A DNA stretch of 64,000 nucleotides from the NCBI RefSeq assembly GCF_017377795.1, contig NZ_JAFRDR010000001.1, positions 248,001 through 312,000 on the forward strand, read 5' to 3'. The DNA is from Williamsia soli. Lineage in GTDB: Bacteria; Actinomycetota; Actinomycetes; Mycobacteriales; Mycobacteriaceae. Positions 7,747 through 29,867 of this stretch are shown piece after piece. Position numbers and translations under genes: made by a program. Below the pieces are notes generated by a model that was given only the letters and a program-made list of their open reading frames with translations, was not told the DNA's origin and did no database searches. How positions within the stretch are numbered: the stretch's first letter is position 1; the number at the start of each line of letters is the position of its first letter.

Positions 7747-8968
7747 CGCGGCCGTTCCATCGATCGATGCCGGCCCACAGCAGCAAACCTGCCACGGCCG
7801 AACCGACCCCTATGATGCACAACAGGTTCCACCCACCTGCGTCGTAGGCATACCCGGAGGCGACCGACCCCGCCACCGCACCTGCGAAATAGGTGACCAT
7901 GTAGGCGGTGGTCACACGACTGCGCGCATCCGGCGAGAGTGAGTAGATCGCGGACTGGTTCGACAGCTGCGAGGCCTGCACTCCGAAATCGAAGACGACC
8001 AGGCCGACGAGCAGTGCCGCGAGCGGCGTCCCGGGCCAGGCCAGCAACAACCATCCGGCAACGGTGATCACCCACGCGCCCGTGGTCGCCCCCCGTAGAT
8101 GTCCGCGGTCGGCCAGCTTTCCGAACATCGGTGCGGCGACCGCACCTGCGACACCAGCGAGGGCGAAGGCCCCGATCATCGCCTCGGAATAGGAGAAGCG
8201 TTCACCTCTGCTCCCCGAGAGGAGAAAAGCGATCGATGTCCACATCGCGCTGAAGCCGAACATCGTCAGAAAGCCCAGCGCCATCCGTTGCCGCAGCATC
8301 GCCTCGGTGGCGATCATCCGTCCGACCGAGGCGAGCAATGCCCCATACGCCTGGGGAGGGCGAGTCCGGTCCGCGGGCACGAGGAGGTAGACGACCACCG
8401 CCAGGATCGCCATCAGGGCTGCGCCGACGAACAGCACCGCCCGCCAGCCACCGACTTCCGCGATCGCCCCGCTGACGACCCGTGCCAGCAGGATGCCGAG
8501 CAGCAGACCGCTCATCACCACTCCGACCACACGTCCGCGGTCCGAGGGCAGGGCCAACGACGATGACCACGGTACTACGATCTGCGCGGTGGCCGCGGAG
8601 ACGCCGACCAGCAGCGAGGCGACGAACAGCGCGCCGAACCCCGGGGCGAGCCCGGACAGCAACAGCGACACCGCCGATGCTGCCATCATGCTGGGCGCCA
8701 ACACTTTTCGGTTCCACAAGTCTCCCAGTGGGACCAACAGCAGAAGGCCTATCGCGTATCCGAATTGCGCAGCGGTCACCACCAGCGCCGCGGTGGACGT
8801 GGAGACGGAGAAGTCGGTGCGGATCTCCTCGAGAACGGGTTGTAAGACGTACAGCGACGACACCGAGACGCCGCAGGTGAGAGCGAACAGCAGTACGAGC
8901 CGCCTGCTGATGCCGGTTGCGGTGGGCGGAGGAGGCGACCCGTCGGGACCGGGCGGGTCAAAAGGCAC
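7730..8968 (-). CDS. MFS transporter (DHA1-type, YnfM/sugar-efflux-like)
   Basis: 412 residues with about 12 predicted membrane helices in two halves. The N-terminal half has the loop 2-3 signature as VPLGDLWNRKVL, which corresponds to the MFS motif G-x-x-x-D-R. The C-terminal half repeats it as FGKLADRGHLRG. A proline-rich cytosolic N terminus precedes helix 1. Proton-coupled efflux of a small molecule is the expected role; the substrate cannot be inferred. It is divergent from the TetR gene at 9077, which may regulate it, and overlaps the 3' end of the convergent TetR gene. Confidence 0.87.
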   Translation of the reverse strand: MPFDPPGPDGSPPPPTATGISRRLVLLFALTCGVSVSSLYVLQPVLEEIRTDFSVSTSTAALVVTAAQFGYAIGLLLLVPLGDLWNRKVLAPSMMAASAVSLLLSGLAPGFGALFVASLLVGVSAATAQIVVPWSSSLALPSDRGRVVGVVMSGLLLGILLARVVSGAIAEVGGWRAVLFVGAALMAILAVVVYLLVPADRTRPPQAYGALLASVGRMIATEAMLRQRMALGFLTMFGFSAMWTSIAFLLSGSRGERFSYSEAMIGAFALAGVAGAVAAPMFGKLADRGHLRGATTGAWVITVAGWLLLAWPGTPLAALLVGLVVFDFGVQASQLSNQSAIYSLSPDARSRVTTAYMVTYFAGAVAGSVASGYAYDAGGWNLLCIIGVGSAVAGLLLWAGIDRWNGRVTRPR

Positions 8969-9076
8969 GGTTTCAGCCTGCCGGATCTGCGCCGCTCGAT
9001 CGAATCGGACAACTCGTCAACCGGGGGCGGGTGGTATTGCCCAGTGCGCCCGCGGTGGCACAGTAGGTTTACGGGT

Positions 9077-9721
9077 ATGGATACCGGAGCTCGGCCAGCG
9101 CCGCGTGAGTACGGCGAGGGGCTCTGGCGTCAGTATGGGGAAGAAGATCTGCCGGTCCCGCTGGCCGCGGCGCTCTCTGCGTTCGCCGAGCACGGCTATC
9201 ACGGCACGTCGGTCCGGGACATCGCCGCGCGAGCGGGGTTGAGCGTCCCGGGGCTCTATCACCACTACCCGTCGAAACAGTCGTTGTTGCAGGGGTTGCT
9301 AGAGCTGACGATGAGCGACCTGCTCGGACGTTCTCGTGCGGCCCTCGAGCAGGCGGGCAGTTCGCCCGTGGAGCGGTTCGACGCGGTGGTCGAATCGCTG
9401 CTGAGGTTTCACATGTACCGCAGGGCGCAGGCGTTCGTCGGGTCGACTGAGATCCGCAGTCTCGAGCCGGTGTTCAGGGTGGAGTACATCGCCACCCGCG
9501 ACGAGCAGCAGCGCATGGTCGACGCAATCGTGCAGGCGGGCGTCGACTCCGGCGATTTCCGCACCCCGCACCCCGTGGATGCGGGCCGTGCGGTGACAAC
9601 GATGTGCGTCGGGGTCTCCACCTGGTATCGACCCTCCGGCAGACTGGGTCCGGACGAACTGGTGTCGCGGTACCTGCTCATCGCGCGTCAGATGGTCGGA
9701 TACTTCTCCACTTCGTCCTAA
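9077..9721 (+). CDS. TetR-family regulator upstream of an acyl-CoA dehydrogenase operon
   Basis: 214 residues. DNA-binding region: AFAEHGYHGTSVRDIAARAGLSVPGLYHHYPSK (written here as the HTH at about residues 30-62). The C-terminal domain is of the type common in regulators of fatty-acid and sterol catabolism in mycolic-acid bacteria. It is followed after 108 bases by an acyl-CoA dehydrogenase operon whose promoter region contains a TetR-style 18-bp palindrome, so repression relieved by an acyl-CoA is a reasonable inference. It could equally act on the divergent MFS gene. Confidence 0.88.
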   Translation: MDTGARPAPREYGEGLWRQYGEEDLPVPLAAALSAFAEHGYHGTSVRDIAARAGLSVPGLYHHYPSKQSLLQGLLELTMSDLLGRSRAALEQAGSSPVERFDAVVESLLRFHMYRRAQAFVGSTEIRSLEPVFRVEYIATRDEQQRMVDAIVQAGVDSGDFRTPHPVDAGRAVTTMCVGVSTWYRPSGRLGPDELVSRYLLIARQMVGYFSTSS

Positions 9722-9770
9722 CCCACCGGGTTGACTGCCCGGGGGCGACCGTGACACTCTGTTACCCGAA

Positions 9771-9788
9771 ACCGAACGATCGCTCGGT
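9771..9788. promoter_or_regulatory. TetR-type operator candidate before acyl-CoA dehydrogenase operon
   Basis: ACCGAACGATCGCTCGGT is an 18-bp palindrome with one mismatched pair (arms 9771-9779 and 9780-9788). It lies 42 bases upstream of the acyl-CoA dehydrogenase start and just downstream of a TetR gene. Its CGA-rich form resembles operators of TetR regulators of acyl-CoA metabolism. Confidence 0.6.
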
Positions 9789-9829
9789 CGGGATAGCCCG
9801 GCTGGGCGACGTACACGAGGAGGTGCCCC

Positions 9830-11044
9830 ATGGCGATTGACCTTTCCTACGATCCAGTTGTCCAGGACGTGATCGACAAGACCAGCGACTTCGTTCGCGG
9901 TCACGTTCTGCCGATCGAAGAGAAGTTCGCCGGCGACATCGCCGCGGCGGGCGGTGACGAGCTGCGCCTCGAGCTCCGTGATCGTGCCCGCGACCTGGGA
10001 ATCCTGGCGCCGCACGCGCCAGTCGAATACGGCGGTCTCGGCTTCAACATGTCCGACCGGGCGCCGGTGTTCGAAGCGGCTGGATACTCCGTGTTCGGTC
10101 CGATCGCCCTGCACATCGGTGCTCCCGACGAGGGCAACGTGCACATGCTCGCCCACGTCGCCAGTACGGATCAGAAGGAGAAGTACCTGGCGCCGCTGGC
10201 GCGCGGCGACGTGCGCTCCGCGTTCGCTATGACCGAACCGGCACCCGGTGCAGGCTCCGATCCCGCAGCGCTGCGTACTGCGGCCGTCAAGGTCGACGGT
10301 GGCTGGAAGATCAACGGCGACAAATGGTTCATCACCGGTGCCGACGGCGCGGGGTTCTTCATCATCATGGCCCGCACCACCGGTGAGCCCGGTGATCGTG
10401 GGGGAGCGACGATGTTCCTCGCCCCGGCCGACACCCCGGGCATCACCGTCGGGCGGCACATCAACACCATCGACCGCGCAATGATCGGCGGACACTGCGA
10501 GGTCGCGTTCCGCGATGTCTTCGTTCCCGACGAGGACGTCCTCGGCGAGGTCGACGAAGGTTACCGCTACGCACAGGTGCGACTCGGACCCGCCCGCATG
10601 ACCCACGTGATGCGGTGGATGGGCAGTGCCAACCGAGCGCGCGACATCGCGCTCGACTACGTCGCCAGGCGAGAGGCATTCGGCGGCAGACTCGGTGACC
10701 TCGGCATGATCCAGCAGATGGTGGCCGACAACGAGATCGACTTGGCCGCTGCACGATCGCTGCTGGTCAAGGCGTGCTGGGAACTCGACCAGGGTGCGCA
10801 CGGTGGAGACGAGACCTCGATCGCCAAGACCTTTGCCGCGGAGGCGTTCTCGCGGGTGGTGGATCGATCGATCCAGATGTGCGGCGGTATGGGCGTTTCC
10901 GACGACCTGCCGTTGGCGCGGTTGCAGCGCGAACTGCGTCCCTTCCAGATCTACGATGGCCCCTCCGAGGTCCATCGCTGGGCTCTTGCCAAGCGCGCGG
11001 TCGGCAAGGCCAGGAAGGCCGCAGCTGCCGGTGGCAAGCCATGA
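9830..11044 (+). CDS. Acyl-CoA dehydrogenase (ACAD10/11-like)
   Basis: 404 residues, ATG after GAGGAGG. Full acyl-CoA dehydrogenase layout: helical N-terminal domain, central barrel with FAMTEPAPGAGSDPAAL (FAD and substrate contacts) and NGDKWFITGADGAGF, then the C-terminal helical domain with QMCGGMGVSDDLPL. At the position of the usual catalytic Glu (IYEG in medium-chain enzymes) it has Asp (IYDGPSEVHR), as do ACAD10/11 relatives. It is translationally coupled (ATGA) to an APH-like kinase gene. In human ACAD10/11 those two activities are one fused chain and process 4-hydroxy fatty acids, so a similar hydroxyacyl substrate is inferred here. Confidence 0.9.
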   Translation: MAIDLSYDPVVQDVIDKTSDFVRGHVLPIEEKFAGDIAAAGGDELRLELRDRARDLGILAPHAPVEYGGLGFNMSDRAPVFEAAGYSVFGPIALHIGAPDEGNVHMLAHVASTDQKEKYLAPLARGDVRSAFAMTEPAPGAGSDPAALRTAAVKVDGGWKINGDKWFITGADGAGFFIIMARTTGEPGDRGGATMFLAPADTPGITVGRHINTIDRAMIGGHCEVAFRDVFVPDEDVLGEVDEGYRYAQVRLGPARMTHVMRWMGSANRARDIALDYVARREAFGGRLGDLGMIQQMVADNEIDLAAARSLLVKACWELDQGAHGGDETSIAKTFAAEAFSRVVDRSIQMCGGMGVSDDLPLARLQRELRPFQIYDGPSEVHRWALAKRAVGKARKAAAAGGKP

Positions 11045-22244: not shown

Positions 22245-23906
22245 TCAGCGCTCGAGCCAGTGCGTCGCGCTCAGTGGCCGGGCGGCGGCGACCGCTTCGT
22301 GATCGCACGCGAACCCGACCGTCCATCGACCACCCTCGAGTTCGACGGCACCGAGGGTCATCGGGGTCGGCAGCGCGGTGAGGAAATCCCCGAGAGCGGC
22401 GGGCGACAGTGTCCACAGCTCACCCCTGATCGAGGTCCCGGCAGCGGTGTCGCGGACCAGCCCCGGTTTCGCGGGTTCGGTGTCGAGTGCGACCAGCCGA
22501 TAGGCCGCAGCTGTCGCGGCGTTCCCGTTCCACCGGGCGCCGCGGTCGGTCAGCTGGTGCATCAGCGGTTGTCCCCGCAAGTGCGCACCGACGACGAACA
22601 CCTCGGTGGTCGCGGCCCCCGCGAGCTCGGGCCAGGAGGGTCCTTCGGCAGCCGCCACGGTGCCGATCCGGCCGGCGATGTCGAGTGCGATGGCGTCGTC
22701 GTGGTCGCGACAGACCACAGTCACCCCGAATTGGGCCGCGCTGCCGTCGGTATCGTCGACGATCCCGGCCGGGACAGCCACAGCGCAGAGGTCGAAGAGA
22801 TTGCAGAAGTTGGTGTACGTCCCCATTGCCGCGTTGACGCCGATCGGGTCGGCGGCGACCTGATCGAGGGTCGGGTGCATCGGTGCGGTGGGGACGAGCA
22901 GGGCGTCGGCGTCACCGAGCGCGGCCAATGCACGCATTCGGAGTTGCTCCACCCGCCGACGGTCGGCAAGCAATTCGACCGCGCTGAAGCGATCGGCCGC
23001 ACCGATGATTGCTGCCACGGTCGGGTCGAGAACGGTGGATTCTGTTGCAGCCGAGATGAACTCGCCGACCGCCTCGAACCGTTCGGCGACGAGCGCGCCC
23101 TCGTAGAGAAGCTTGGCCGCGGCCAGGAAGTCGGAGATGTCGATCCGCTTGATCCGGACGCCCGCGGATTCAGCCTGCTCGATGGCGGCTTCGAACGCGT
23201 CCTGCCACCGCTCGTCCAGGGCGGGTAACTGGGCGGGGACGGCGACCACCGGACTGTCCGGAGCGGCGAACTTCACCGCGGTGCCCCAGTTCTCGGCGCC
23301 GGCCATCGATCCCATCGCGCGGTTGGCGAGGTCGAGATCGCGGGCGAGGATGGTGACGCAGTCGTAGCTCGCGCACGCCGGGACCACACCGGCCGTACTG
23401 ACCACACCCAACGTGGGTTTGATGCCCACGATGCCCTGCAGCCCGGCGGGTACCCGCCCGGACCCGGCGGTGTCGGTGCCGATGGCGATGTCGGCGAACC
23501 CCAGTGCGACAGCGACCGCAGAACCCGAACTCGAACCACCGGAGATGCGCTCGGGCCGTCGCGAATCACGCACTGCGCCGTACGGGCTGCGGGTGCCGAC
23601 GAGCCCGGTTGCGAACTGGTCGAGGTTGGTCTTGCCGATCACCACCGCACCTGCCGAACGCAGGGCTGCCACTGCGGCGGCGTCTCGCTCGGGTACGTAG
23701 GCGAAGCCGGGGCAAGCAGCCGTCGTCGGCAGCCCCGCGACGTCGACGTTGTCCTTGACCGCCAGCACCACACCGGCCAGGGCGCCTCCGGCGGCCACCG
23801 AGGCCGCGTGCTCCCGCTCGACGTCTGTCCGCTCGCGCAAGGTGATGAACACCTCGGGTCGATCGGCCGCGTCGATGAGGTCGTAGATGTCAGCAATCCG
23901 GCTCAT
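22245..23906 (-). CDS. atzF: Allophanate hydrolase
   Basis: 553 residues. The start at 23906 overlaps the stop of the preceding gene (ATGA). N-terminal amidase-signature domain with Lys of the triad in AVKDNVDV (about 51), the GGSSSGSA segment near 124-130, and the likely nucleophile in GTDTAGSGR (about 149). The C-terminal domain (about 430-553), including VGAHLRGQPLMHQL, is the one special to allophanate hydrolases, which distinguishes it from plain amidases. It splits allophanate to 2 ammonia and 2 CO2. It is the last gene of the operon that starts with the permease at 29034. Confidence 0.9.
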   Translation of the reverse strand: MSRIADIYDLIDAADRPEVFITLRERTDVEREHAASVAAGGALAGVVLAVKDNVDVAGLPTTAACPGFAYVPERDAAAVAALRSAGAVVIGKTNLDQFATGLVGTRSPYGAVRDSRRPERISGGSSSGSAVAVALGFADIAIGTDTAGSGRVPAGLQGIVGIKPTLGVVSTAGVVPACASYDCVTILARDLDLANRAMGSMAGAENWGTAVKFAAPDSPVVAVPAQLPALDERWQDAFEAAIEQAESAGVRIKRIDISDFLAAAKLLYEGALVAERFEAVGEFISAATESTVLDPTVAAIIGAADRFSAVELLADRRRVEQLRMRALAALGDADALLVPTAPMHPTLDQVAADPIGVNAAMGTYTNFCNLFDLCAVAVPAGIVDDTDGSAAQFGVTVVCRDHDDAIALDIAGRIGTVAAAEGPSWPELAGAATTEVFVVGAHLRGQPLMHQLTDRGARWNGNAATAAAYRLVALDTEPAKPGLVRDTAAGTSIRGELWTLSPAALGDFLTALPTPMTLGAVELEGGRWTVGFACDHEAVAAARPLSATHWLER

Positions 23907-25906
23907 GCCACTTTTCCTGTCTTGGTGGCGAACTCGCCACCATCGGACCAACGTTGCCGTTCGATTGCCCTGGCGGCCTCCATCGCGGAGCGATCTGCGG
24001 TGATGGCGCCGGCATTGTCGTCGAGGAACCGCTGGTGTTCGGCGAGCGAGAACGTGCCGTCGCTGATCTCCACTGTGCCACGCCCCGCGGCCATGTCGGC
24101 TCGTAGGTCGAGGAGTTCATCGGCGCTGACCGGGTACCAGCTGATCTTGTCGAAGAAGCGGAGCAGCCAGGGATGTTCGGGTTCGAACCCGGCGGCCCGA
24201 AGTGGATGCCGGTGGTTCCAGACCTGGGTGGTACGTCCGACGAACTGGTAACCGCCCGGACCCTCCATCCCATAGATGCACATGTACGCACCTCCGATGC
24301 CGACCGCGTTCTCCGGTGTCCAGGTGCGGGCGGGGTTGTACTTGGTGGTGATCAGTCGATGACGTGGGTCGAGCGGGACGGCCACGGGCGCACCGAGATA
24401 CACGTCACCGAGACCGAGCACGAGGTATTCGGCGTCGTAGACGATCCGGTGCACGTCGTCAACCGAGTCGAGGCCGTTCATCCGGCGGATGAACTCGATG
24501 TTCCAGGGACACCAGGGCGCATCCGAGCGGACGCCGAGCATGTATCGCTCGATCGCCTCGCGGGTGGCCGGATCGTCCCAGGACAGCGGTAGATGCACAG
24601 TTCGACTCGGTACGACCAGCTCTGAGGCCGACGGCAGCTGGGCTTCGCATTCGGTCAGCCACGCGAGCAGCGTCGACTGTCGCATCACGGTGGGGTCGAC
24701 CTTGACCTGCAGGGACCGGATGCCGGGGGTGAGGGTGATCAGGCCGGGCGGGCGTTCGGCGTCGATTCGTTCGGCAAGCGCATGAACCCTGGCGCGCAGC
24801 GCCAGATCCAGGCTCATGTCGCCGTACTCGACGAGGATGTTGTCGTCGCCGCTGCGACGGTAGGTCACCTTGGTGGTGCCGTCGGCCGTCGTCGATCCAC
24901 CCAGGACCCCGTCGTCGAGGTCGGTGCCTGCGGAGATGACGGTGCTGAACCCGGCCCGCCGGTGCGCGCCGAAGCTCGCAACGCTGGCGACCTCGGCCGC
25001 GCGGACCGGGACGAACTGCACCGTGTCCCCGGGCTTGAGCTGTCCGAGCTTCCAACGCTCCGCGGTGGTGACGGTCACCGGGCACACGAATCCTCCGAGA
25101 CTCGGACCGTCCGGCCCGAGCAGGATGGGGGTGTCGCCGGTGAAGTCCAGTGCACCAACCGAATACGCGGTGTCGTGGATGTTCGATGGGTGCAGGCCCG
25201 CCTCGCCGCCGTCGTTGCGTGCCCATCGTGGCTGCGGCCCCACGAGTCGAACTCCGGTGCGGTCGGAGTTGAAATGTACCTCGTAGGGGGTGTTGTAGAG
25301 ATCGTCGATGTCCTCGGGCGTGAAGAATTCGGGGGCGCTGTGCGGCCCGACGGTCACGGCGAGGTGCCAATTGTTGGTCAGTGCGGGCTTCTCGTCGCCG
25401 AGGATGCGGCGGGCCACTCCGGCCGGAACTGCCGAAGCGGTCGCAAGGGTGTCACCGTCGGTCAGGGCGCGACCGTCTTTGCCTCCGAACTTACCGAGAG
25501 TGAACGTCGATCGGCTCTCGAGATAGAGCTCGGCGTCGACGCCCCCTGCAACGGCGACGTAGACGCGCATCCCGACGACGCCGACCGCGCCGATGTCGAG
25601 GATCTCTCCGGCTTTGAGGGTGATCGGAACCCATTGCGGCACAGACTTACCGGAGACGGTCAGTGAGACGGGCGCGCCGGTGACCGCGACGACGGTGTCG
25701 GCGTCGAACTGCAGTTGCGGACCCACCAGGGTGCACTCCAGACCGGGTGCACCTTCGGCGTTGCCGACCGCGATGTTCGCCAGCCGGAACGACAGGTCGT
25801 CCATCGGCCCTGACGGCGGGACGCCGACGTGCCAGTAACGGATGCGACCGGGCCAATCCTGGATGGTGGTCTGCGGGCCCGCCCGCAGGATCGAGATCAT
25901 GGACAT
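23903..25906 (-). CDS. Stand-alone carboxyltransferase half of a urea/guanidine carboxylase
   Basis: 667 residues. The first part (about 1-310) is the AHS2/KipA domain, beginning with TTIQDWPGRIRYWHVG and PPSGPMDDLSFRLAN; the second (about 335-560) is AHS1/KipI, with DDNILVEYGDMSLDL and VYLGAPVAVPLDPRHRL. This equals the central carboxyltransferase of bacterial urea or guanidine carboxylases, normally about 1200 residues. The N-terminal biotin carboxylase and the C-terminal biotin carrier with its MKM motif are absent, and the preceding gene ends 6 bases before this one, so they are not lost by frameshift nearby. It may work with a carboxylase subunit from elsewhere, or act like the biotin-free PxpBC/KipIA oxoprolinases. 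Confidence 0.85.
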   Translation of the reverse strand: MSMISILRAGPQTTIQDWPGRIRYWHVGVPPSGPMDDLSFRLANIAVGNAEGAPGLECTLVGPQLQFDADTVVAVTGAPVSLTVSGKSVPQWVPITLKAGEILDIGAVGVVGMRVYVAVAGGVDAELYLESRSTFTLGKFGGKDGRALTDGDTLATASAVPAGVARRILGDEKPALTNNWHLAVTVGPHSAPEFFTPEDIDDLYNTPYEVHFNSDRTGVRLVGPQPRWARNDGGEAGLHPSNIHDTAYSVGALDFTGDTPILLGPDGPSLGGFVCPVTVTTAERWKLGQLKPGDTVQFVPVRAAEVASVASFGAHRRAGFSTVISAGTDLDDGVLGGSTTADGTTKVTYRRSGDDNILVEYGDMSLDLALRARVHALAERIDAERPPGLITLTPGIRSLQVKVDPTVMRQSTLLAWLTECEAQLPSASELVVPSRTVHLPLSWDDPATREAIERYMLGVRSDAPWCPWNIEFIRRMNGLDSVDDVHRIVYDAEYLVLGLGDVYLGAPVAVPLDPRHRLITTKYNPARTWTPENAVGIGGAYMCIYGMEGPGGYQFVGRTTQVWNHRHPLRAAGFEPEHPWLLRFFDKISWYPVSADELLDLRADMAAGRGTVEISDGTFSLAEHQRFLDDNAGAITADRSAMEAARAIERQRWSDGGEFATKTGKVA

Positions 25907-25911
25907 GGTGA

Positions 25912-26580
25912 TCAGGCCTCGCTCACGCCGGGCCGGGTCACGATGACCCGTACCGCGGTGGGGTCGAAACCGTTGCAGGGGTTGTTGATCTGCGGGCAGT
26001 TGGAGATGAGGACCAGCGTGTCCACCTCGGCTCGCAGCGCCAGGCGTTTGCCGGGTGCGGACAGTCCGTCGACGATGCCGAGGGAACCGTCAGCGTCGAC
26101 GGGCACGTTCATGAAGAAGTTGACGTTTCCGACCATGTCGGCCTTGCCCAGGCCGTGCGGGACGCCGCCGATGAGGAAGTTCTCCACACACGCGTGCTGG
26201 TGTTTGGTGTGGTGGCCGTACCGCAGCGTGTTCGACTCCTGTGAGCACGCACCACCGAGAGTGTCGTGGTTGCCCACCTCGTCGGCCACGATCGTCATCA
26301 GCGGGGACGAATCCTGATCCCGGATCACCGATCCGGTGGTCAGGAATATGTTGCCCTGGGCGGCGATGGTCGCCTGTGCCGAATAGCGGATCGAGTGATC
26401 GCGGCCGCCGAAGAACAGGGTGTCGACGGCCTGGTTGCCGTACAGATCGACGATCGTGAGGACGTCTCCGGCCGCGACGACGCCGGACCACGGGGCACGC
26501 TCACCGATCTCGTGGTCTCCGATCACCTCACCGGCCACCAGTGCCAGTTCTACGGCCGAAGCGGTTGTAGCCGTGCTCAT
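25912..26580 (-). CDS. DUF1989 protein UAAP2 (carboxyguanidine deiminase subunit)
   Basis: 222 residues; ATG at 26580 overlaps the previous stop (ATGA). A DUF1989 protein of the 'urea amidolyase-associated 2' type: APWSGVV near 30, VDLYGNQAVDTLFF, the probable metal-site segment TLGGACSQESN and HACVENFLIGG, and SNCPQINNPCNGFDP at the end. The pair of DUF1989 proteins beside carboxylase and allophanate hydrolase was shown in other bacteria to form carboxyguanidine deiminase (CgdAB), converting carboxyguanidine to allophanate plus ammonia. The genetic context here supports the same step. Confidence 0.88.
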   Translation of the reverse strand: MSTATTASAVELALVAGEVIGDHEIGERAPWSGVVAAGDVLTIVDLYGNQAVDTLFFGGRDHSIRYSAQATIAAQGNIFLTTGSVIRDQDSSPLMTIVADEVGNHDTLGGACSQESNTLRYGHHTKHQHACVENFLIGGVPHGLGKADMVGNVNFFMNVPVDADGSLGIVDGLSAPGKRLALRAEVDTLVLISNCPQINNPCNGFDPTAVRVIVTRPGVSEA

Positions 26581-27434
26581 CACGCATTCCTCTCGAAGTG
26601 TGCTGCGGCCCAGACATCCTCAGAGTTGAGGGCCGCACGCTGATATTCCGGGTCGGTGTCGGGTAGATCGGCGAGCAGGGTCTCGAGATCGCCGGGTGCC
26701 CGCCACGCGAGGACCTCCACCGGACCCACATCGAACCCGGGCGAGGGGTCCAGCGGATGCGCGGTGTTGACGATCGCGACCGTGCACGGCAGATGGAGCA
26801 ACAGGTCCACGTGCTTGTCCAACCCCGCCGAACCCTTCGAGGTCAGGGACCCGTCGGACTCGACCACGACGCCGTGGAAGAACGACAGCGACGGAGCGAC
26901 ATCGGTGGCGCGCAGGCCGTGTTTCGCGGCGGCGAGCAGGAACAGCTCCCGGCCGGCAGGTGTCTGCGAGTAGACCTCACCAGCACCGTATTTCGCGGTG
27001 TTGCCGGCCAGCGTGCTGGTGCCGCAGAGCGCGTCGTGATGGCCGGAGTCATCGTCGACGATGGTGGCCAGGACCCGACCTTGATCGCTGAGCAGGGGAT
27101 GGCCGGCGCCGAGGTATGCCTGCCAGGGAACCTTCACGGTGTCGGCGACATTGAGCCGTTCCCACGGTGCGTCCGCGCGCCAGAGCAGCACGTTGGCGCA
27201 GCCGGTCCCGGCGATATCGCGAAGCCGGAGCCTGGTGCCGCGGGCGAGCACCTTGCTCGTGTAACGCCCACCGGGCACCGTCTCGGCCCACGTCATGTCC
27301 TGCGCGACAACACCGTCGGGCACGTGCGGCCAGGCCGACGCCGGTACGACGGGCATTGTGTCGGTGATGGTGGCGGCTTGGGCTCGAGCGTGCTCACGGG
27401 CTCCTGCGGTGGTTCCGGTGGACGTCATCGTCAT
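26580..27434 (-). CDS. DUF1989 protein UAAP1 (carboxyguanidine deiminase subunit)
   Basis: 284 residues. DUF1989 protein of the 'urea amidolyase-associated 1' type: WAETVPGGRYTSKVLARG near 50, LRLRDIAGTGCANVLLW, and NTAHPLDPSPGF near the end. Expected to pair with the following protein as carboxyguanidine deiminase in the cytosol. The long N terminus rich in Thr and Ala is probably flexible. It is followed by UAAP2 with a 1-base-type overlap (ATGA) and preceded by the permease with 31 bases between them. Confidence 0.87.
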   Translation of the reverse strand: MTMTSTGTTAGAREHARAQAATITDTMPVVPASAWPHVPDGVVAQDMTWAETVPGGRYTSKVLARGTRLRLRDIAGTGCANVLLWRADAPWERLNVADTVKVPWQAYLGAGHPLLSDQGRVLATIVDDDSGHHDALCGTSTLAGNTAKYGAGEVYSQTPAGRELFLLAAAKHGLRATDVAPSLSFFHGVVVESDGSLTSKGSAGLDKHVDLLLHLPCTVAIVNTAHPLDPSPGFDVGPVEVLAWRAPGDLETLLADLPDTDPEYQRAALNSEDVWAAAHFERNA

Positions 27435-27465
27435 GTCCGGGTTGTCCTTTCGAAATCGGGGGTGG

Positions 27466-29034
27466 CTATTTGTCGTCTGCTGCCGGCGTGAACACCTTCA
27501 CGGGCATCGGGTGCTTCTTGCCGTGCGGGAAGCAAGCGATGCCGACGAGGATCGACGCCACGATGCAGATCGGGCCTGCCCACTTGAGGATGGGCATCTC
27601 GCCGGCGGGGTCGAAGATCTCCGCGCGTGGCCAGGCCAGGTTGACCACCATCAGCAGTCCGTACACAACCGCCAGGATGTTGAGCGGGATCCCGAAGCGG
27701 CCCAGAGTGAACAGCTTCTTGCCTTCGGCGTCCACAGCGCTGGTGGTGTTGCCGGGCCACCCCTTGAGCCGGCGCCAGAGCATCGGGCCGGTGACCGAGA
27801 GGTACGCGAGATAGATCAGGATGATGCAGACACTGGCGAGGGTCGCGAAGATCGCCGAGTTGCCGATGTTGACGACGAGGACGGCGATGCACAGCACACC
27901 GATCAGCACCGACGGTGCGATGGGGGTTCCGGTCCGCGCGTTCACGTGGCTCAGGAGTTTCGACGCCGGCAGCCGGTTGTCGCGGGCCATCGAGAACATC
28001 AGTCGTGAGCACGCGGTCTGAATCGCCAGGGTGCAGATGAAGATGGCGACGACCACGTCGCACAGCAGCACCTTGCCCCAGAAGGAACCGAGAACCGAGT
28101 CGAGGACGTAGGGCAGGCCCCCGACGGCCAGTTCCTCACCCAGGCTGGGTGCGGCCATGAGCGCGCCGAGCAGCATCAATCCGCCACCGATTGCCGAAAC
28201 GGTCAGTGCCAGGCGGATCGTGCGCGGTGCGACCCGACGAGGGTTCTTCGTCTCCTCTGCGAGTTCACCCGCCGATCCGAAGCCGACCATCACGTAGGCC
28301 GCCATCAGCCCGGAGACGATGAAGGCCCAGACGTAACCGGGCTGCTGACCGGGCAAGCCGGTGTCGAACACGACGTCGGGTCCGCGCTCGGCGTGGGTGA
28401 ACAGCGCCAGGATCACCGCGGTGACACCGACGATCTCGCAGGTGACGCCGATGTTGTTGATCCGGCTCATCCAGTTGACGCCGATGCAGTTGATGAAGGT
28501 GGTGACGACCAGCAGGATCGATCCGAGCAGGACTGCGTTGGCGGCACCACTGGTGCTGGTCAACGCCGCGTCGTCGCCGATGATCTGGAAGCCCTCCCAG
28601 ATCGAGGGCATGACCACCTGAAGTGCGATCGCGGCTGCGGACGCGGTGACGATCTGGGCGAGCATCATGAACCAGCCACCGAACCAGCCGATGACCTCAC
28701 CGCCCATGCGCCGCGACCACTGGTAGATCGCACCGGAGATCGGATAGCGCGCGGCGATCTCGGCGAAACAGAGGGCGACCAGGAACTGGCCGACGTAGAC
28801 GATCGGCCAGGTCCAGAAGAACGCCGGACCGCCGAACGAAAAGCCGAGACCGAAGAGCTGGAAGATCGTGGTCAGGATGGAGACGAACGAGAAACCCGCC
28901 GCAAACGACGCGAAGGTTCCCAACGAGCGGTGGAGCTGCTGGGTGTAGCCGAACACGGAGAGATCGTCGGCGTCCGGAGTTGGTCCGGCGCCGCTGCTCA
29001 CTGGTGCGGTGGGGGGTTGCGCGGTTGCGGTCAT
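27466..29034 (-). CDS. APC-family permease of the guanidine/allophanate operon
   Basis: 522 residues from the ATG at 29034, which follows AGGAAG; an upstream start at 29061 is less likely. About 12 membrane helices. APC-type signatures: helix 1 with FASFAAGFSFVSI, and GFGSAGELAEETKNPRRVAPR between helices 6 and 7, the usual conserved cytosolic loop. Amino-acid/polyamine/organocation transporters of this type often accompany DUF1989 and urea carboxylase genes. Uptake of guanidine or a guanidino or ureido compound is inferred. It is the first gene of the operon; its promoter overlaps TetR-style operators. Confidence 0.87.
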   Translation of the reverse strand: MTATAQPPTAPVSSGAGPTPDADDLSVFGYTQQLHRSLGTFASFAAGFSFVSILTTIFQLFGLGFSFGGPAFFWTWPIVYVGQFLVALCFAEIAARYPISGAIYQWSRRMGGEVIGWFGGWFMMLAQIVTASAAAIALQVVMPSIWEGFQIIGDDAALTSTSGAANAVLLGSILLVVTTFINCIGVNWMSRINNIGVTCEIVGVTAVILALFTHAERGPDVVFDTGLPGQQPGYVWAFIVSGLMAAYVMVGFGSAGELAEETKNPRRVAPRTIRLALTVSAIGGGLMLLGALMAAPSLGEELAVGGLPYVLDSVLGSFWGKVLLCDVVVAIFICTLAIQTACSRLMFSMARDNRLPASKLLSHVNARTGTPIAPSVLIGVLCIAVLVVNIGNSAIFATLASVCIILIYLAYLSVTGPMLWRRLKGWPGNTTSAVDAEGKKLFTLGRFGIPLNILAVVYGLLMVVNLAWPRAEIFDPAGEMPILKWAGPICIVASILVGIACFPHGKKHPMPVKVFTPAADDK

Positions 29035-29070
29035 GGGAGGTCTTCCTGCTAAGGGGCCCATGAGCCCTGG

Positions 29071-29090
29071 TATCTGTCAGGTGATAGATA
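29071..29090. promoter_or_regulatory. TetR operator candidate 1 (permease operon)
   Basis: TATCTGTCAGGTGATAGATA has arms of 9 bases (29071-29079, 29082-29090) with 8 of 9 pairs. Its core CTGTCAGGTGATAG is repeated 32 bases away at 29106-29119 at 12 of 14 positions, which is three helical turns. Confidence 0.65.
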
Positions 29091-29105
29091 ACCGCGTAGC
29101 CATTT

Positions 29106-29119
29106 CTGTCGAGTGACAG
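29106..29119. promoter_or_regulatory. TetR operator candidate 2 (permease operon)
   Basis: CTGTCGAGTGACAG, arms of 5 perfectly paired bases, a second copy of the operator centred at 29081. It lies in the gap between the permease operon and the divergent TetR gene. Confidence 0.6.
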
Positions 29120-29123
29120 GTTT

Positions 29124-29160
29124 GTTTCCGGCGCGGAAACGCGTGAAACAAATATGTTTC
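29124..29160. promoter_or_regulatory. Pair of GTTTC-type palindromes upstream of TetR gene
   Basis: GTTTCCGGCGCGGAAAC (29124-29140, 6-base arms) is followed by GAAACAAATATGTTTC (29145-29160, 6-base arms). They share the GTTTC half-site but differ from the CTGTC operators, so they may bind a second regulator or form the TetR gene's own promoter region. Confidence 0.5.
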
Positions 29161-29192
29161 CGAGAACGCACTCGGTGCAGGTCAGGGGCTCA

Positions 29193-29867
29193 ATGACCGG
29201 CGCGGACGCCATCAACAGGGCGTCGATGACAGTAAGGTCAGTACCTGTGACTCATGTTGCGGCAGGCCCAGGACGCCCTCGATTGGTGGAGCAACGACGT
29301 CGTGGTGCCACTGCTCGCGAGGAGATCAGGGACGCCGCTGCGGAGCTGTTCACCACACGTGGCTACGCGGGTACGTCCACCAGGATGATCGCCGAGGCCG
29401 TGGGGATCCGGCAGGCGTCGCTCTATCACCACTTCAAGACGAAAGACGACATCCTCGAGTCCCTGCTCAAGGACACCGTCGTGCTGCCGCTCGAGAAGGC
29501 GCGCGAGGTTGCGGCAGCCGACGGTCCGACGCTTGCCAGGCTGCAGGAGTTGGCGGGCTTCGACGCCGGGCAGCTCGCCGCGGCGCGCTGGAATCTCGGC
29601 GCGCTCTATCTACTCCCCGAACTGCGCACGGAGCGATTCGCCGAGTTCCGTCAGGCGCGCACCGACCTGGCCCGCATCTATGCGCAGCTGGCCGGCGAGG
29701 TCCTCGGTGATCAGTCGGACCCGCGCAGGCACGTTCCGTTCCGGCTCGTGGAATCGGTGATCAGCATGCGCTCCGACGAGATGGTGGGCGCACTCGGCGC
29801 CGATTCTCTCGGCGACCTCGTCGGGGTACTCGTCGAGAGCATCGCGCTCGTCCTCACCCGGAGGTGA
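29193..29867 (+). CDS. TetR-family regulator of the guanidine/allophanate operon
   Basis: About 224 residues from ATG 29193. An ATG at 29154 lies inside a palindrome with no ribosome site, and a GTG at 29247 is also possible, so the start is uncertain. HTH: TSTRMIAEAVGIRQASLYHHF, at about residues 60-80. The rest is a helical ligand-binding domain. It is divergent from the permease gene and two copies of a palindrome lie between them, so it probably represses the operon until a pathway compound binds. No guanidine riboswitch was recognised in the leader. Confidence 0.87.
   Translation: MTGADAINRASMTVRSVPVTHVAAGPGRPRLVEQRRRGATAREEIRDAAAELFTTRGYAGTSTRMIAEAVGIRQASLYHHFKTKDDILESLLKDTVVLPLEKAREVAAADGPTLARLQELAGFDAGQLAAARWNLGALYLLPELRTERFAEFRQARTDLARIYAQLAGEVLGDQSDPRRHVPFRLVESVISMRSDEMVGALGADSLGDLVGVLVESIALVLTRR

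Follow-up and report, generated by a model that had tools for sequence, protein, structure and literature searches.

A conserved short carboxyltransferase, lacking biotin carboxylase and biotin carrier domains, in a putative guanidine operon of Williamsia soli and its relatives

Introduction

How can an operon for guanidine use operate when its carboxylase consists of the carboxyl-transferring half alone? The question is raised by a locus of Williamsia soli (assembly GCF_017377795.1) within positions 248,001 to 312,000 of contig NZ_JAFRDR010000001.1. This 64,000-nucleotide stretch, analysed at its full length, is called the window below, and coordinates count from its first letter. On its minus strand, the genes for a permease, the DUF1989 proteins UAAP1 and UAAP2, a short carboxyltransferase (CT) and an allophanate hydrolase form, in that order, a tight operon beside an amtR-like gene. 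Guanidine use has only recently been recognised as belonging to the nitrogen cycle, and its pathway has been described with a biotin-containing, ATP-dependent carboxylase (PMC11410670).

An earlier note on this DNA, made from the sequence alone, had taken the 667-residue carboxylase for a CT part without biotin carboxylase (BC) or biotin motif and had named it a variant that its author had not seen described. In the literature searched we saw no report of a guanidine or urea carboxylase reduced to its CT, in agreement with that remark; subscription papers lay mostly outside it, so a description may be in print. Beyond what the note had claimed, we find the short form spread widely through the family, with at least two origins. 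The short-form operon is a real, conserved variant of the guanidine carboxylase operon that apparently evolved repeatedly.

Results and discussion

Domains and signature residues of the carboxyltransferase

The CT gene (23903..25906, minus strand) encodes 667 amino acids (aa), in which Pfam finds CT_A_B (residues 27-300), CT_C_D (348-566) and nothing else. The protein covers positions 448-1115 of the 1201 of the NCBIfam urea carboxylase (UC) profile TIGR02712, with the BC end and the biotin carboxyl carrier protein (BCCP) end missing, and its score of 975.5 bits lies below the curated cut-off of 1303.85, which places it outside the urea carboxylase equivalog. The score against the PxpC model NF045499 is likewise below its threshold (131.5 bits, cut-off 500). 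No BC domain was detected with Pfam or NCBIfam, no BCCP domain or biotinylation motif with these or a motif search, and a biotinylation-type motif is absent from all six frames of the window. The description of the protein in the earlier note thus holds.

Residues 5-650 align with Kluyveromyces lactis urea carboxylase. Asp254, Asp501 and Lys522 of the CT (codons 25145..25147, 24404..24406 and 24341..24343, minus strand) correspond in this alignment to K. lactis positions 1330, 1584 and 1605. An Asp at position 1330 separates guanidine from urea carboxylases, which have Asn there, while Asp1584 is conserved (PMC11410670); the Asp versus Asn distinction is also reported in PMC12186494, and Lys1605 is most likely the general base of the CT (PMC5770610). 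The window CT therefore carries the Asp pair of guanidine carboxylases and not the Asn of urea carboxylases. Among 107 aligned rows of short forms, Asp is present at 1330 in 106, the exception being L085 of clade B (see below), and Asp1584 and Lys1605 are present in 107/107. An AlphaFold model of the short CT was poor (mean predicted local distance difference test score 57.6) and was not used further. Since Asp254, Asp501 and Lys522 are all kept, the protein would be a guanidine-type carboxyltransferase, with carboxyl transfer to guanidine as its likeliest reaction; guanidine carboxylation is also the likely reaction throughout clade A, to which the window CT belongs.

The neighbouring genes, all on the minus strand, fit this assignment. 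NCBIfam cut-offs are exceeded by the permease of urea-carboxylase systems (27466..29061, APC family; TIGR03428, 860 bits versus 740), for which a later ATG may be the start, by UAAP1 (26580..27434; TIGR03425, 281 versus 206), by UAAP2 (25912..26583; TIGR03424, 313 versus 285) and by the allophanate hydrolase (22245..23906; TIGR02713, 614.7 versus 511). The adjacent UAAP1 and UAAP2 genes encode the predicted subunits of carboxyguanidine deiminase. The hydrolase contains both its amidase (PF01425) and AH_C (PF21986) domains and comprises 553 aa when started at the ATG at 23906, which overlaps the CT stop; a TTG start would extend the open reading frame (ORF) to 23951. With 5 bases between UAAP2 (stop at 25912) and the CT start at 25906, and the overlap at the other end, there is no space for a BC gene between these genes. 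The close abutment and the guanidine/allophanate nature of the operon, both proposed in the earlier note, are borne out by these coordinates, the profile scores and the Asp254/Asp501 pair.

Distribution and conservation of the short form

We drew 101 genomes from the genus, family and order of the window. Clade A of the short form is present in 35 of them, covering 19 genus codes of the family and including 9/9 Williamsia; 31 of the 35 (window included) were read as sequence and four were judged by open-frame length. Two genomes were left unclassed, G052 because part of the sequence is N and G039 because it is in pieces. The distribution is patchy, as other genomes of the family lack any UC-type CT. 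Full-length Asp-type enzymes were read in eight genomes of the draw (L086-L093), seven of them in the window's family (L086-L091, L093), and the short form occurs in none of the eight, which is the pattern that replacement of one by the other would give. Five genomes (G017, G029, G030, G046, for which the short form was judged by frame length, and G057) have both a short enzyme of Asp type and a full-length one of Asn type. In the set of named genomes, the best 80 loci comprise 76 short and four full-length ones (Sinomonas, Pseudarthrobacter). By their titles, the short loci of this set belong to Williamsia, Gordonia, Mycolicibacterium/Mycobacterium, Tsukamurella, Rhodococcus, Rhodococcoides, Prescottella, Antrihabitans, Jongsikchunia and one Kitasatospora, and its Mycolicibacterium loci (including septicum, peregrinum, porcinum, brisbanense and wolinskyi) are short. 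The record titled Kitasatospora arboriphila (L114) is probably mislabelled or contaminated, because it carries a Williamsia-like operon (87% CT identity).

Around the short loci, some 6-9 kb of flank was searched, less where a contig ends; duplicates between the drawn and the named sets were dropped for the counts of 96, 97 and 98 and kept in those of 107 and 115. With the window set aside, there are 97 distinct clade A loci; UAAP1 and UAAP2 are present in 97/97, the permease in 90, a TetR gene in 79 and allophanate hydrolase in 77. The loci without hydrolase, which keep UAAP1, UAAP2 and CT, are L071, L073, L075, L076, L078, L082, L083, L150, L152-L156, L158, L161, L163-L165, L183 and L264; 12 named ones among them are Rhodococcus, Rhodococcoides or Prescottella.

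Compared with four Williamsia, the CT has ratios of nonsynonymous to synonymous substitution rates (dN/dS) of 0.043, 0.035, 0.093 and 0.120. Two of these comparisons give the CT the lowest value among the five operon genes, and the other two an intermediate one. The short CT is under purifying selection. That the gene is a decayed remnant, in an operon that is inactive or bypasses this step, would agree with the loss of two catalytic domains and with the 20/97 clade A flanks lacking hydrolase (some end at contig edges). We consider it highly improbable given these dN/dS values, a single clade spanning many genera, and the behaviour of an M. smegmatis operon with the same genes, which is controlled by GlnR and AmtR and induced when nitrogen is scarce (PMC4222082, PMC3662644). 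The earlier note had asked whether the short form keeps its neighbours in related genomes, which it does, and had named findings that would speak against it: a full-length carboxylase in the same genome beside a degenerate or unexpressed short protein, or a local deletion confined to this strain. No full-length copy was found in the genome, and the selection on the CT and its presence in all nine Williamsia and 19 genus codes argue against degeneracy and a strain-specific deletion.

Apparent repeated domain loss and site 215

In a tree of 55 CTs, the 40 short rows form one clade (Shimodaira-Hasegawa-like approximate likelihood ratio test, 98) nested among full-length Asp-type enzymes. Clade A retains 265 of the 308 positions that are invariant in full-length Asp-type enzymes, against 241/308 in urea-type full-length enzymes. 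A second, more distant short lineage, found mostly in other actinobacterial families, occurs in the same operon and comprises clade B (L193-L195, which come from two further families of the order, and L085, which lies on a contig of 6.6 kb from the window's family), with Met at 254, and clade C (L261 and L262, from outside the window's class), with Ile at 254. A 52-row tree recovered A as one clade (100/98) and B plus C as another (99/95), and forcing all short forms into a single clade cost 38.2 log units (approximately unbiased, AU, test, p 0.0092). One common origin for the short forms is thus rejected in favour of two losses of BC and BCCP, on evidence that is good and not final, since the AU test was set after the tree had been seen and long branches (K. 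lactis, L265) are present. A wider spread of 396 actinobacterial genomes was searched with the clade B CT (E <= 1e-60). At least 16 genomes matched, a lower bound because three candidates were scored per genome, and by frame length or reading 10 of these 16 have a short form: seven from the window's family, two of clade C and the degenerate L260.

L260 (genome G200, 2.4 Mb; positions 8801-10945) encodes a short CT of 714 aa with Ala, Ala, Glu and Arg at 215, 254, 501 and 522; it has no guanidine genes, and its neighbours resemble ribosomal-protein and RNA polymerase genes. This is probably a repurposed or decaying CT; it is left out of the counts for groups A-C and kept in the 115 loci below.

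Alternatively, the short CT might be an ATP-dependent hydrolase or activator whose substrate is a different guanidino or N-carboxy compound, one that the deiminase accepts. The Met or Ile of clades B and C at the published specificity site would suit such a role, as would homology of the CT to PxpB/PxpC; in addition, an Rfam scan of the window gave no family at gathering score, guanidine riboswitches included. We nonetheless judge it distinctly unlikely: the guanidine Asp is present in the window CT and throughout clade A, the operon has kept the carboxylase-system permease along with both deiminase genes, and it lacks PxpA while a separate pxpABC locus exists in the genome. The alternative in the earlier note of a PxpBC-like hydrolase with a substrate other than guanidine is accordingly weakened for the window by the Asp pair, the adjacent deiminase genes and the pxpABC locus elsewhere; for clades B and C, where Asp254 is absent, it loses less ground.

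Site 215 (codon 25262..25264, minus strand) sets the short forms apart. In the alignment of short forms and full-length enzymes it is Asp in 98/98 distinct clade A loci (window included), 4/4 of B and 2/2 of C, all 104 being operon-borne. The 22 full-length enzymes (K. lactis included) have Ala in 13, all with Asp254, Asn in eight, all with Asn254, and Asp in one, L265, which also has Asp254. The gain of Asp takes three steps on the tree. Met476 and His565, specific to clade A, were set aside because they are not common to all of B and C. An Asp at 254, at 215 or at both is accompanied by UAAP1 and UAAP2 in the flanks of 117/117 loci (97 of A, four of B, two of C and 14 full-length Asp-type), whereas UAAP genes are absent from the flanks of 7/7 urea-type (Asn/Asn) full-length actinobacterial loci. 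On one reading, Asp215 would aid in holding the guanidinium ion and replace Asp254 in clades B and C; on another, it would be part of a changed mechanism.

Such a changed mechanism could be independent of biotin, the enzyme with Asp215 carboxylating guanidine directly from bicarbonate or CO2 (perhaps with ATP), pulled by the deiminase and hydrolase, after the operon had shed BC and BCCP at least twice. To our knowledge, carboxylation without a donor has no precedent in this family, and clade A retains the residues used for carboxyl transfer. The near-exclusive Asp215 of the short forms and the repeated loss of both domains in the same operon, with no replacement gene seen nearby, point the other way, and for PxpB/PxpC, which are related, phosphorylation by ATP is assumed (PMC13274462). 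The Asp215 of full-length L265 implies that this residue is compatible with a fused BC. We regard a biotin-independent carboxylase or activating enzyme as possible, if rather unlikely; in that case biotin would be dispensable to an enzyme of this family.

The search for a carboxyl donor

The 6.07-Mb genome of the window (25 contigs) has three CT_A_B matches: the window CT, an ordinary pxpABC locus on contig C25, and a weak match on C22 that was rejected because two stops interrupt it. A full-length UC-type carboxylase was not found in it. BC domains occur at eight places and biotin/lipoyl domains at fourteen. The eight BCs are four proteins of pyruvate carboxylase size and four BC-BCCP proteins, three of which adjoin acyl-CoA-type CT genes. 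None of the genome's BCs is UC-type, the best identity to the UC BC domain being 50% with no match at E <= 1e-150, and no BC dedicated to the short CT was found in this genome. The pyruvate-carboxylase-like proteins (1127-1169 aa) lie on C19, C24, C8 and C11 (L096, L098, L099, L101), and those of C24 and C8 are, by eye, near-identical over long stretches.

Three candidates from this genome were discarded. The BC on C7, closest to the UC BC at 50%, adjoins an acyl-CoA-type CT gene, and its linker is matched in just 4/101 genomes, once weakly. The BC on C1 also adjoins such a gene and is not specific, its linker being matched, mostly weakly, in 61/101. A lone biotin carrier on C19, next to a putative PdtaS-like kinase gene, is not general, because no comparable small open frame is among the matches of G015 and G044.

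A local donor gene was rejected as well, for the flanks of the short loci contain no BC or BCCP ORF. Across 115 short-form loci, a count that includes duplicates and L260, the biotinylation motif is absent from every ORF of at least 60 aa, against its presence in 25 of 27 control loci (full-length, split or PxpBC); the two without it are the PxpBC loci L196 and L197. UC-type BCs (E <= 1e-150) occur in 18/101 genomes, and in five of the 35 clade A genomes, each in the frame or a contig piece of a fused enzyme. A stand-alone UC-type BC was seen in none of the 101 genomes.

The draw holds 39 short-form genomes (35 A, four B). BCs were identified in seven, to which G049 and the window's genome were added, giving nine; the labels AccA1, AccA3 and pyruvate carboxylase were assigned by similarity and gene context. 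Types AccA3, C1 and AccA1 are found in G025, G050 and G023; pyruvate carboxylase, AccA3 and AccA1 in G044; pyruvate carboxylase and AccA1 in G015; AccA3 and C1 in G087; and AccA3, pyruvate carboxylase and a lone BC in G063. AccA3 is present in 8/9 and is the one BC-BCCP type so widely found, pyruvate carboxylase and AccA1 each being absent from some of these genomes. In mycobacteria, AccA3 is the alpha subunit common to three acyl-CoA carboxylases (PMC11001197), and pull-downs tie it to AccD4 and AccD5 (PMC4347857).

The explanation that we favour is a nitrogen-scavenging guanidine pathway whose CT is fed carboxybiotin in trans, with AccA3 as prime suspect; we give it an even chance. The permease would import guanidine, the short CT would convert it to carboxyguanidine, UAAP1/UAAP2 would deiminate this to allophanate, and the hydrolase would release ammonia and CO2. 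Within the mycolic-acid family, where seven of the genomes read still have the full-length Asp-type form, the CT lineage would have shed both fused domains, BC and BCCP; its carboxybiotin would now come from a BC-BCCP protein whose gene lies elsewhere, most probably AccA3. A BC acting in trans, perhaps shared with an acyl-CoA carboxylase, had been suggested in the earlier note and stays the preferred reading. Central lipid metabolism would then lend activated CO2 to nitrogen scavenging in mycolic-acid bacteria.

Several points weigh against this explanation. No physical or biochemical link joins the CT to AccA3, which is probably near-universal in these bacteria, so that its presence says little. 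G015 is a short-form genome without AccA3 in the sequence examined; an assembly gap is possible, since the gene adjoining accA3 in the sister genome G044 also lacks a close match in G015 (best 41%). We know of no BC-BCCP protein that serves CTs of two unrelated folds. A mere change of donor does not explain Asp215 in every operon-borne short form, which leaves room for a biotin-independent mechanism.

A separate arrangement, which counts in favour of the in-trans reading, occurs in three genomes of the order (L190-L192), where CT_A_B and CT_C_D genes stand beside separate BC and BCCP genes. These clusters comprise a PxpA-like gene, a lone BC, a lone BCCP (EVMKT/EVMKM), CT_A_B and CT_C_D, and may encode a split biotin-type relative of 5-oxoprolinase. 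One of these genomes, G037, has a short CT elsewhere.

The regulator gene and promoter region

The divergent TetR gene (29154..29867, plus strand) encodes an AmtR-like regulator with predicted DNA binding. The closest solved structure by phmmer is AmtR (5e57; E 8.7e-56, residues 47-211), and the true start may lie further downstream. In the divergent promoter region (29062..29153), inverted repeats CTGTCACTCGACAG and GGAAACATATTTGTTTC were spotted by eye (window 29062-29160) and are mostly kept in two other Williamsia promoters (L113, L115); they are candidate regulator sites. A search for the AmtR box CTAT-N6-ATAG gave 0 matches.

Comparison with known systems

With guanidine carboxylase (TIGR02712 family, Asp type), the short form shares the CT domains, Asp254/Asp501/Lys522 and an operon of UAAP1/UAAP2, permease and allophanate hydrolase; both UAAP genes accompany 14/14 full-length Asp-type loci. 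It differs in lacking BC and BCCP and in having Asp215 where 13 of 14 full-length Asp-type enzymes have Ala. Homology to urea carboxylase/urea amidolyase (K. lactis, 3va7, 5i8i) extends over CT residues 5-650, but the window protein has Asp rather than Asn at 254 and 215, no BC or BCCP, and adjacent deiminase genes. The 5-oxoprolinase subunits PxpB/PxpC have homologous CT_A_B and CT_C_D and also lack the biotin parts; the window CT, in contrast, joins both halves in one chain, scores far below the PxpC and PxpB cut-offs and has no adjoining pxpA, the genome's own pxpABC being on C25. Separate N- and C-half CT homologues without known function are mentioned in section 8 of PMC3199775, which are not a fused short form. 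The split clusters L190-L192 likewise have a UC-like CT unfused to BC and BCCP, but with dedicated BC and BCCP genes in the cluster and the CT halves as separate genes.

A further likeness, drawn by gene content, is M. smegmatis msmeg_2184-2189, which has the same genes (permease, urf1, urf2, 'urea carboxylase', amidase) and an AmtR link (PMC4222082), although amtR lies elsewhere in M. smegmatis and beside the operon in the window. Nitrogen starvation induces that operon under the control of GlnR, and AmtR represses it (PMC4222082, PMC3662644, PMC4617892). Its enzyme functions are called highly speculative in PMC4222082, and the parts of the operon papers covered mention neither missing domains nor guanidine. 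M. smegmatis is reported not to grow on urea (PMC4222082, section 9), which fits badly with the 'urea' label. Many Mycobacterium relatives have a complete-looking guanidine operon with a carboxylase reduced to its carboxyl-transferring half, which would call for a borrowed activated carboxyl group or a new mechanism, and the analogy suggests guanidine rather than urea as the substrate of AmtR/GlnR operons of the M. smegmatis type.

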